Shown: positions 4,047 to 17,583 of the stretch, piece by piece
How positions within the stretch are numbered: position 1 is the stretch's first letter
Layout of the letters: the number at the start of each line of letters is the position of its first letter
Assembly: GCA_018699955.1 (NCBI GenBank)
Contig: JABISG010000147.1
Location: 1-64,000 of the forward strand
Direction of reading: 5' to 3'
Source of the DNA: Planctomycetaceae bacterium
GTDB taxonomy: Bacteria; Planctomycetota; Planctomycetia; Planctomycetales; Planctomycetaceae
Length of the DNA stretch: 64,000 nt
Translations under genes and position numbers: made by a program
Notes under the pieces: model-generated
The model's database searches: none
What the model saw: only the letters and a program-made list of their open reading frames with translations
Told to the model about the DNA's origin: nothing

Positions 4047-5498
4047 ATGGGCGTGAAATTTTGGAATGATGAGCTACGGGTTTGCCAAAAGTGTAAGAAA
4101 ACTGTGGAGATCAATGCAGAGGGAAAAGTGAGATGCCCCCACTGTCAATCGAACGTTTGGTTCTACGACTACCGGCCGATCAGTGATCCGCCGGAAATAC
4201 CAACAGCCCGCCCTGTTGACCTCCTGAAGAACCCAAGCACGACCCTGTTGCTTGCTGCAGTCGCAGTTTTTGGTCTCGTGGCGCTCGTTGCCATCTTCAA
4301 CTCTTACATCGTCGCCACCGTCTGCAGTCTTGCTGCAATCGGGTTCGCTGCGTTCGGTTTCGTCCGCCACGCCGAAGCTCGCCAAATTGAAGCCAGTTTG
4401 GAGTACATGAACCGTATGAAACAATACGGTGAGGTCATGCGTGATCGTGTGTCGGAATCGATTTTCCGATACAACCATCTGCTGCGAACGGGCGACACTC
4501 GGATCGAACACTATTACAACGACATCTACTTACGCGCCGAAAAGGAAAGGAAGGATGCCGAGGCAATGCGAGGTGCCGCCCAGCGCGACCGACGCGCTGT
4601 CAAACACGTTGAAGATCGAATTTTCCAGATGGCTGCGCGGTTCATACAGGATCATTTGAAGTGGGTTTCCCAAAAACTACGGCCCGACCCGGAGAACTAT
4701 CAGCGCAACAAGCTGCAACTCATAAAGGCTTTCGATTTCATTGACGGTGTTGGGTACGATGTTCCGCGCAATTTGCGCAAGGATTCAATGAAGGACTTGA
4801 AGTCCAGCTATCGCGTAAAGGTTCGCGAGCAGACTCTCAAAGATGAGCAGCGCCGAATCAAACAGCAAATGCGTGAAGAGGAGAAAGCGAGGAAAGAAAG
4901 GGAGCAGGCGTTGCAGGAAGCCGAACAACGCGAGAACGACATCCAGAAACGACTGGATGAGGCCCTCCGAGAACACGCCGACGAACATGGCGCCGAGATT
5001 GAAGAATTGAAACGCCAATTGGCTGAGGCCCATGCCAATTCCGAACGGGCGCTATCGATGGCACAGCAAACAAAAGTAGGACACGTTTACATTCTGTCTA
5101 ACATCGGCTCGTTTGGGGAGGGCATTTTCAAAGTCGGCATGACGCGCCGAGTGGAGCCGCAGCTTCGAGTGAAGGAACTCGGCGATGCAAGTGTTCCATT
5201 TCCGTTCGACGTGCATGCGATGATAACATGCGATGACGCGCCCAAACTGGAGAAGACATTACATCACGAATTGACGCGATATCGCGTCAATCGAGTGAAC
5301 TTACGCAAAGAGTATTTCGCCGTGCAGCTTGACACGATACTTGCTGCGGTGAGAACGCATCACGGGAAAGTCGAATACGTTGCTGAGCCGGAAGCACTGG
5401 AGTATCGCGAAACTCAGGAGATTAGTCCTGACGAACTTGTCGAAGTCGAATCTGAGTTGGTGGAAATCGGCGCCGACTTTGAAGACTTCGACGAGTAG
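4047..5498 (+). CDS. zinc-ribbon, membrane, coiled-coil, T5orf172/GIY-YIG-like protein (DUF4041 type)
   Basis: A 483-residue protein in four parts. Residues 13-33 hold a CxxC..CxxC zinc ribbon (Cys13, 16, 30, 33). Residues about 62-105 form two hydrophobic helices. Residues about 240-342 form a long charged coiled coil. Residues 344-440 are a T5orf172/Mug113-type GIY-YIG-like domain, with HVYIL for the first motif, FKVGM for the second and RKEYF near the end. The coil plus final domain is the arrangement of DUF4041 proteins, common in phages and accessory regions. Family members are presumed nucleic-acid-binding or nuclease proteins. The ribbon plus two membrane helices in front is unusual. 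An acidic tail follows. Start chosen at 4047 because upstream sequence is not protein-like. Confidence 0.75.
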   Translation: MGVKFWNDELRVCQKCKKTVEINAEGKVRCPHCQSNVWFYDYRPISDPPEIPTARPVDLLKNPSTTLLLAAVAVFGLVALVAIFNSYIVATVCSLAAIGFAAFGFVRHAEARQIEASLEYMNRMKQYGEVMRDRVSESIFRYNHLLRTGDTRIEHYYNDIYLRAEKERKDAEAMRGAAQRDRRAVKHVEDRIFQMAARFIQDHLKWVSQKLRPDPENYQRNKLQLIKAFDFIDGVGYDVPRNLRKDSMKDLKSSYRVKVREQTLKDEQRRIKQQMREEEKARKEREQALQEAEQRENDIQKRLDEALREHADEHGAEIEELKRQLAEAHANSERALSMAQQTKVGHVYILSNIGSFGEGIFKVGMTRRVEPQLRVKELGDASVPFPFDVHAMITCDDAPKLEKTLHHELTRYRVNRVNLRKEYFAVQLDTILAAVRTHHGKVEYVAEPEALEYRETQEISPDELVEVESELVEIGADFEDFDE

Positions 5499-15721: not shown

Positions 15722-16582
15722 TCAAAAGAGTCTGTCGCTTCCGCGTTGCTTCTTCGTACTCTCATTCCAGAACTTCAAACCCAACGGGTTTCTTGATGCG
15801 AACAGGATGCGGTACAGGGGGACGCCACGGTCAAGGTAGAGTACTTCGTCGCCGAAATGCTCGTATCCAAGATGTTCTCGAAGTTGGTTCTGATAGAGTT
15901 GCACAAAAAGTCTGCTGACTTTTGCGGCACTATGGTCGGCAAGTGAATGCCATTCGCTTCTCCAATCGCAATCAGGGCCAAGGACTTGATCTAAGTTCGA
16001 TTGAGACTGCTGCGCGTAAGTCGCGACATTGCGGATGATATCCATGAAATCGGCGAACAGGATCAGCAAATCGACAGAGCGGTTTTCCGTCAGGGTCGCG
16101 AGCGTTTCAAATGACGCGTGCAACCCTGTCGGGTCTATAAAAGCAAGCGTAAGCGCATTCGCAGGGATTGAGTTGCAGATCAATCCGATCTGTTCGTTGC
16201 AATCGCCCTCGAAAACTCGAATCGATTGGGTTGTCGCAAGCGATTGAGCGCGTTTTTTGCACGCCAAAGCCCGCGAATGGTTCTTCTCACACAATAGGAC
16301 TTTGGTGAACGGCTTCGCGGCTCGCATAGCCAATAGCGGAGATCCTGGAATTCGTTCTCCACTCTCGAACTCTAGGATTCCCGGCCCTGCAAAGAGATCG
16401 ACGTAAACCAAATCGTGTGGCCACTTGTTGCGACCAACAAGTGCAGCAGTCGTGATATCGATGTATTTATTCCACCACCACAGTTTGTCTTCAGTCCATA
16501 CCTGAGCCTTGCGCACTTCCAGGCCGTCGTTGATCTCGACGGACTTACGCAACTGCAACCAACGATCTGTTTTCTTTGCCAT
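15722..16582 (-). CDS. tcmP: three-Cys-motif partner protein TcmP
   Basis: A 286-residue protein of the TcmP family, named for occurring beside three-Cys-motif proteins. Features seen: an N-terminal [14 protein letters not shown] region, a Rossmann-like [10 protein letters not shown] loop (residues 60-69), a second motif [16 protein letters not shown], and [13 protein letters not shown]. The loops resemble those of S-adenosylmethionine methyltransferases, but the function is not established. Its start has GAGGA about six bases upstream and lies 38 bases inside the upstream DUF5131 gene, so translation is coupled. The pair sits between citrate synthase and a membrane protein gene, with no other accessory gene. 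By eye it looks less GC-rich than its neighbours. Confidence 0.88.
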
Positions 16583-17303
16583 TCTGGTCCTCTTTGCGAT
16601 TTGGCATGCCGTCCCAAGTCTGCCCCTCCAGCAACCGCCCCGTCTTCTTCTTGTTCACACCACCCCATTGCTTGAAGAAGAACGGCACATCTTTGTCCGC
16701 GCACAGGTCGCGGATTTCCGTTACCCATTCTTCCTGCATCGGCCGTGCGCCGGGGCCGGACTCGCCGCCGACGATGACCCAGTCGACTTCGCTTACTGGC
16801 AGATTGGGAATCGGTCCCAGCAGCGGTTCGACCGACAGGAATTTGATGTGGGCGTCGGTCTTTGCCAACTCGTGGACGCGCCAGGTATAGTCGGCGGTTT
16901 CTACGCTCGTTCCCATCCACACGTTTTCCGGCCACGGCAATTTGTCGGTCAACTCCGCAGTTCGTTCCGGGCGCTTAGTCAACACTTGGAACTTGTGATG
17001 GGATGCCTTTTTCATGACGTCGAAAACACTACGAATAAACTTCGTCGGCACGTCCTCGTGAAAAAGATCGCTCATTGAGTTGACGAAAATCGTTCGCGGC
17101 TTCTTCCATTTCAGTGGAAGTTCCACTACGTCATCCTGCAGTGTCAGTTTGAAACCGTCACGGTATCGTTCTTGTCCCATCGCCTTGAGCCGTTTGGCCA
17201 TTCGCTCGGCGTAACAGAACTTGCAGCCGGGGCTGATCTTTGTGCAGCCGGTGACTGGGTTCCACGTTGCCTCAGTCCATTCGATCGATGAATTCTGTGC
17301 CAT
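16545..17303 (-). CDS. three-Cys-motif DUF5131 / phage Gp37-Gp68 family protein
   Basis: A 252-residue protein of the DUF5131 (Gp37/Gp68) family. The defining cysteines are Cys20, Cys27 and Cys30 (CX6CX2C) in [15 protein letters not shown], resembling a radical SAM cluster site with altered spacing. Other landmarks are [53 protein letters not shown] and PFFFKQWGG, consistent with a TIM-barrel radical SAM-like fold. A strong GGAGG lies eight bases before the ATG at 17303. It is the first gene of the two-gene cassette with tcmP. The family is common on phages and mobile regions; its reaction is unknown. Confidence 0.92.
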
Positions 17304-17583
17304 TGACCTGTCCTCCAATTTACAGTTTATTCATGCGTACACATGTTGGCAAGTCTGCTTTCGTCGGAAGGCTGGAGAATACCCTTCTGGCCGAATGTCA
17401 CCAACAGGGAATTGGTCGTGTAATTTCCACATTGGCGTCACGTCCAGTATTCTGATTCAAATATTCGGCGACTCAGAAGTTTTGAATCTGACTCGCTAAT
17501 TGTTTGGTCAGTTGAGCGAATCGGTAGAGGACATCGATTCCAAGACTCCATTCACCGCCCCTCACCCTGCGAAAGCAAAACCA

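Follow-up and report, generated by a model that had tools for sequence, protein, structure and literature searches.

The gene at positions 4047 to 5498 of the window, the whole 64,000-nucleotide stretch of a Planctomycetaceae bacterium contig analyzed here, probably encodes a one-gene anti-phage nuclease of the SNIPE (PD-lambda-1) type that would act at the site of phage DNA injection, a reading drawn from its sequence and from analogy with a characterized relative. PD-lambda-1 has been renamed SNIPE, a membrane-bound E. coli nuclease that cleaves the DNA of phages while it is being injected (Nature 2026, PMC13190303). Defense by SNIPE needs both the DUF4041 domain and E414, with E414A abolishing defense; the protein binds the tape-measure protein and was crosslinked to it during infection, it is toxic when untethered, and its authors describe it as a previously unknown strategy that separates self from non-self by the location of DNA entry (PMC13190303). 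The initial annotation had guessed at a membrane-tethered nuclease acting against entering DNA, and since PD-lambda-1 is SNIPE this guess corresponds to the known mechanism of the closest characterized relative, in which it has been demonstrated and which supports it by analogy (PMC13190303).

Table 1. Positions of the gene and of the features of its product in the window.
Feature	Position	Strand	Basis or remark
Candidate SNIPE-like membrane nuclease gene	4047..5498	+	483 aa from ATG 4047; GTG 4053 likelier start
Zinc ribbon CxxC-x13-CxxC, residues 13-33	4083..4145	+	Cys conservation, model strands, weak RNA polymerase subunit P similarity
Membrane hairpin: TM1 about 63-84, 3-residue turn, TM2 about 88-106	4233..4364	+	Hydropathy, K/R, AlphaFold
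Continuous helical stalk, residues 107-186	4365..4604	+	AlphaFold helix 87-209
Compact three-helix middle module, residues about 187-262	4605..4832	+	hhalign; helix spacing as in L106; own HMM
Charged helical linker, residues 263-343	4833..5075	+	Homologous to SNIPE linker helix; AlphaFold
GIY-YIG nuclease domain (T5orf172/MUG113), residues 345-445	5079..5381	+	Pfam, AlphaFold, Foldseek
R374, presumed catalytic Arg	5166..5168	+	Invariant, 30 aligned members
E402, aligned with catalytic E414 of E. coli SNIPE	5250..5252	+	At least 90% conserved, 30 members

The open reading frame is as first reported, running for 483 codons from its ATG, and the true start is probably the GTG at 4053 rather than this ATG, since V3 lines up with the first Met of the homologs (MKFW) and an AAGG lies 8 nt upstream of the GTG. 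The gene is single-copy within its 7.1-Mb draft genome, and its close homologs are all from planctomycetes. A divergent gene for a DUF4153 membrane protein lies on one side and a convergent DUF1501 gene on the other, so it stands as a one-gene unit. No dense defense island was found around it within the window, where the sole candidate defense pair is PDC-M41A/B (PADLOC), at 15722-17318 on the minus strand and about 10 kb away. In this pair of adjacent genes, the PDC-M41A match is at 8.3e-21, the PDC-M41B match is presumed (1.8e-121, to one protein of the scanned set), and the second gene matches DUF5131 at 6.9e-103. PADLOC mad3/mad8, RtcR, and WYL matches in neighboring genes were ascribed to general domains and left unused.

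The zinc ribbon that the initial annotation placed at the N-terminus is well founded, since C13, C16, C30, and C33 are invariant across 12 aligned planctomycete homologs with identity down to about 32%, and AlphaFold builds the ribbon from 4 beta strands (10-12, 19-21, 26-29, and 36-39). The rest of the N-terminal region is mostly variable in the same 12 proteins. The ribbon is weakly similar to those of RNA polymerase subunit P. A search of 150 genomes for the ribbon and hairpin fused to other effectors gave no convincing case, the other matches having E-values of 5e-4 to 0.01. In some homologs a GYF_2-like domain precedes the ribbon (L065/L012 and L076/L014 with a sub-threshold Pfam score, L067 and L072 by eye), and L069 has an extra N-terminal region at this place that is TerB-like by eye.

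The two membrane helices proposed behind the ribbon appear both as hydropathy peaks, at 66-84 (2.83) and 88-106 (2.26) with the turn NSY between them, and as AlphaFold helices, at 63-83 and from 87 onward. The same succession of ribbon and two hydrophobic segments occurs in 14 members, with turns of 3-9 residues. These turns hold 0-1 K/R each and 3 K/R summed over the 14 members, while the 15-residue stretches after TM2 hold 1-5 per member, a charge distribution that, together with the hairpin itself, favors an N-in/C-in arrangement in which the nuclease side, the N-terminus, and hence the ribbon are all predicted to be cytoplasmic. AlphaFold, run on a 30-sequence alignment, gave a mean pLDDT of 79 and a pTM of 0.41, so the global arrangement of the model is uncertain while its local structure is mostly confident. 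From the N-terminus, it consists of the 4-stranded ribbon, helices at 63-83, 87-209, 215-235, 241-309, and 315-343, and an alpha/beta nuclease; the second of these helices bears out the long helical stalk.

What had been called a DUF4041 domain is a more complicated matter. Pfam DUF4041 (PF13250) does not match the window protein at E<=1, whereas the same profile matches E. coli SNIPE at 1.2e-19, and an HMM rebuilt from canonical DUF4041 members misses all 14 of 14 ribbon proteins. We therefore dropped the classical assignment and kept only a remote core. With hhalign, the region between about residue 200 and the beginning of the linker aligns with the C-terminal half of DUF4041 at a probability of 93.7 (E 1.8e-7), and after the conserved tail was trimmed the probability was 69, with a score of 38.5 against a maximum of 22.1 in 60 column shuffles. 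A canonical member, L106, that was modeled separately has helices at 150-177, 184-205, and 211-282, and their counterparts in the window protein, a helix ending at 209 followed by 215-235 and 241-309, are spaced in the same way; the pattern in both models is a helix, a short loop, a helix of about 21 residues, a loop, and a long helix. L106 also has an additional helix and strand segment that the window protein lacks. On this comparison of sequences and models, the middle module appears, with moderate confidence, to be a reduced and diverged DUF4041 core, a remote relative of the domain's C-terminal half. An HMM of the ribbon-type module itself finds matches in Planctomycetota, in Sumerlaeota, and in 2 viral contigs.

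The C-terminal assignment to a T5orf172/GIY-YIG domain needs no such revision (T5orf172 at 2.7e-17, MUG113 at 6.3e-17), and the nearest PDB structure in Foldseek is the GIY-YIG nuclease Slx1, with weak matches only. Y348, G364, R374, H390, and N415 are invariant in 30 members and E402 and N418 nearly so; the catalytic residues, Arg, His, Glu, and Asn, are conserved rather than missing. One ribbon-type member (L061:2008-3432, gene L006) carries Gly where the catalytic Glu would be expected (DLGKKLH). The PADLOC PD-Lambda-1 profile matches the window protein at 7.8e-85, over residues 247-463 only, whereas E. coli SNIPE matches it end to end. The E. coli SNIPE used for comparison, a phage-encoded protein annotated as PD-lambda-1 (P0002), shares 52% identity with the window protein across 194 aa of its linker and nuclease regions, from residue 271 of the window protein onward, and it carries the Glu at 414 of the SNIPE paper, to which E402 of the window protein aligns.

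In a tree built from linker and nuclease only, the 62 DUF4041-type rows are split from the 35 rows without detectable DUF4041 by a branch with an SH-aLRT of 99. The window protein falls on the latter side and not with the DUF4041-bearing SNIPE, together with the other ribbon proteins, with proteins from Planctomycetota and Sumerlaeota that have a single TM, and with a group of phage proteins; by this placement, it is a member of a sister branch, outside SNIPE in the narrow, DUF4041-bearing sense. Ribbon and membrane anchor before the stalk were seen only in Planctomycetota among 80 genome loci, and the ribbon was in 0 of 80 viral loci. Of the order of ribbon, membrane helices, and DUF4041 that the initial annotation proposed to look for in other genomes, then, the first two parts do recur within Planctomycetota, and both are present in all close full-length homologs, but DUF4041 is undetected in the ribbon proteins. 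L063, which is of the ribbon type, has 1 TM by a simple threshold and 2 by a pairwise scan. On a larger tree the ribbon proteins require 5 changes, but their grouping as one clade could not be rejected (AU p 0.10).

The window protein has in common with SNIPE/PD-lambda-1 (PMC13190303, PMC9519451) an N-terminal anchor, a helical middle, a long helical linker, a C-terminal GIY-YIG domain with an aligned catalytic Glu, and organization as a single gene. It differs from SNIPE in adding a zinc ribbon, in having 2 membrane helices rather than 1, and in the predicted cytoplasmic position of its N-terminus, which is periplasmic in E. coli SNIPE, where the nuclease is cytoplasmic (PMC13190303). What appears to remain of DUF4041 is a compact core unrecognized by the domain's own profile, and the protein lies on the other side of the tree. 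The E. coli topology is no requirement for the family, as SNIPE homologs have 0, 1, or 2 TMs, with 2 in 7% of 474, and an N-terminal DUF4428 is reported among those without a TM (PMC13190303), so that such homologs resemble the window protein in TM count or in having a small N-terminal globular domain. The combination of ribbon and hairpin is not described in the main text of that report, in which the word "zinc" is absent (PMC13190303).

If the gene is a defense gene of the SNIPE type, the tight hairpin would fix the protein to the cytoplasmic membrane from the inside, leaving both the zinc ribbon and the stalk in the cytoplasm, and the stalk would set the GIY-YIG nuclease close to where phage DNA enters. 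The middle module may, perhaps jointly with the ribbon, bind the entering DNA or a phage or host injection complex, and the nuclease would then cut the DNA while it is entering, with the tether keeping it away from the chromosome. That the planctomycete branch works as E. coli SNIPE does, that its topology is N-in, and what the ribbon binds are all inferred. The patchy presence of the family, found in 24 of 150 genomes of the order, and its frequent carriage by phages and viral contigs, with plasmids as further carriers, fit a defense gene. Counting against this reading are the undetectable DUF4041, a domain essential in E. coli SNIPE, the position of the branch outside the DUF4041-bearing side, the location of the homologs mostly outside dense islands, and the Gly at the catalytic Glu position in L006/L061. 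Our literature search found no experiment on any ribbon-type member.

The protein could also keep the SNIPE chassis but recognize invading DNA differently. In that case the ribbon and the compact module would have DNA or a planctomycete membrane complex as their target instead of phage tape-measure proteins. This is a sub-hypothesis of the SNIPE-type explanation and not an exclusive rival to it, and we consider it possible, at somewhat less than even chances. The unrecognizable DUF4041 with its missing N-terminal half, the extra ribbon, the inverted N-terminal topology that is predicted, and the deep split from DUF4041-bearing SNIPE all point toward it, but the three-helix core that has been kept corresponds to the part of SNIPE with E223, N250, and W257, the sites tied to tape-measure binding. 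More tentatively still, the ribbon-hairpin proteins and the sister branch lacking DUF4041 might together form a second lineage of nucleases that act at the site of injection and recognize incoming DNA differently, in which a cytoplasmic zinc ribbon and a compact module would replace DUF4041 and the tape-measure protein. Because different recognition is a variant within the SNIPE-type explanation, the probabilities of these readings overlap. If there is such a second lineage, the general principle would be tethering, with interchangeable sensors. A planctomycete branch in which nuclease and tether are retained, DUF4041 is unrecognizable, and a zinc ribbon predicted to be cytoplasmic sits on a hairpin anchor makes it testable whether specificity comes from location, tape-measure contact, or a DNA-binding head.

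The neighborhoods of the homologs bear on the remaining explanations. The initial annotation had proposed to check whether homologs sit in defense islands, and this was not what we found, as the ribbon-type homologs lie mostly among ordinary genes and not in dense islands, a weak island signal that is tempered by SNIPE itself being a single-gene system that is found also in phages. Close homologs beside ordinary genes speak for the alternative that the protein is a membrane-anchored nuclease for the cell's own DNA, with a membrane-based role in uptake, repair, or segregation, and does not act against phage. Synteny is conserved between two related genomes in which a LexA-like gene (L060:2157-2771 and L061:1100-1819) precedes the ribbon-type gene by about 190 bp; the LexA call is based on the gene start, with 1 S24 peptidase match in the scanned neighbor set. 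Two other homologs are directly beside a DEDDh exonuclease (L058:11458-12414 and L059:5617-6432, in differing orientations). Such neighbors could suit a housekeeping nuclease, but the exonuclease is of the PADLOC candidate defense class PDC-S48, and the patchy occurrence in the order, the presence of the family on phages and plasmids, and the defense function of the characterized relative all make a role on the cell's own DNA unlikely. A PDC-S48 exonuclease was sought in the window's genome, in a search run without a positive control, and was not found.

It is also quite unlikely that the gene is a superinfection-exclusion gene left behind by a decayed chromosomal prophage. Many relatives do occur in phages or on contigs that resemble prophages, the gene annotated as PD-lambda-1 belongs to a lambda-like phage where ren is its neighbor and rha is close by, and L065 is near an integrase, but no phage gene was recognized among the window neighbors examined, and close homologs (L058-L061 and L138) are also found among ordinary genes. 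Mobile endonucleases often contain T5orf172 domains (e.g., PMC10448857), but a homing or selfish protein with no defense role is very improbable here given the conserved membrane anchor and long stalk and a PD-lambda-1 similarity that spans the full linker and nuclease.

A GIY-YIG protein of a Citrobacter TSA-1 plasmid (P0003) and related phage proteins match PD-Lambda-1 with DUF4041 undetected; the Citrobacter protein has hydrophobic segments near its N-terminus and no ribbon, and its phage relatives also lack the ribbon and differ in their middle segment, to which the ribbon-type HMM has no match. The Citrobacter locus (L030:1269-2513) adjoins type VI secretion genes. This locus and viral ones, L141 and L215 among them, encode SNIPE relatives without detectable DUF4041 that have yet another middle segment. 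The PADLOC candidate PDC-S57 has a T5orf172-type nuclease in common with the window protein, the match being confined to the nuclease domain (profile length, 212-245 positions). One homolog, in genome G033, is split over two contig ends (L025 and L007), probably by an assembly break, and has an in-frame TAA in its nuclease part.
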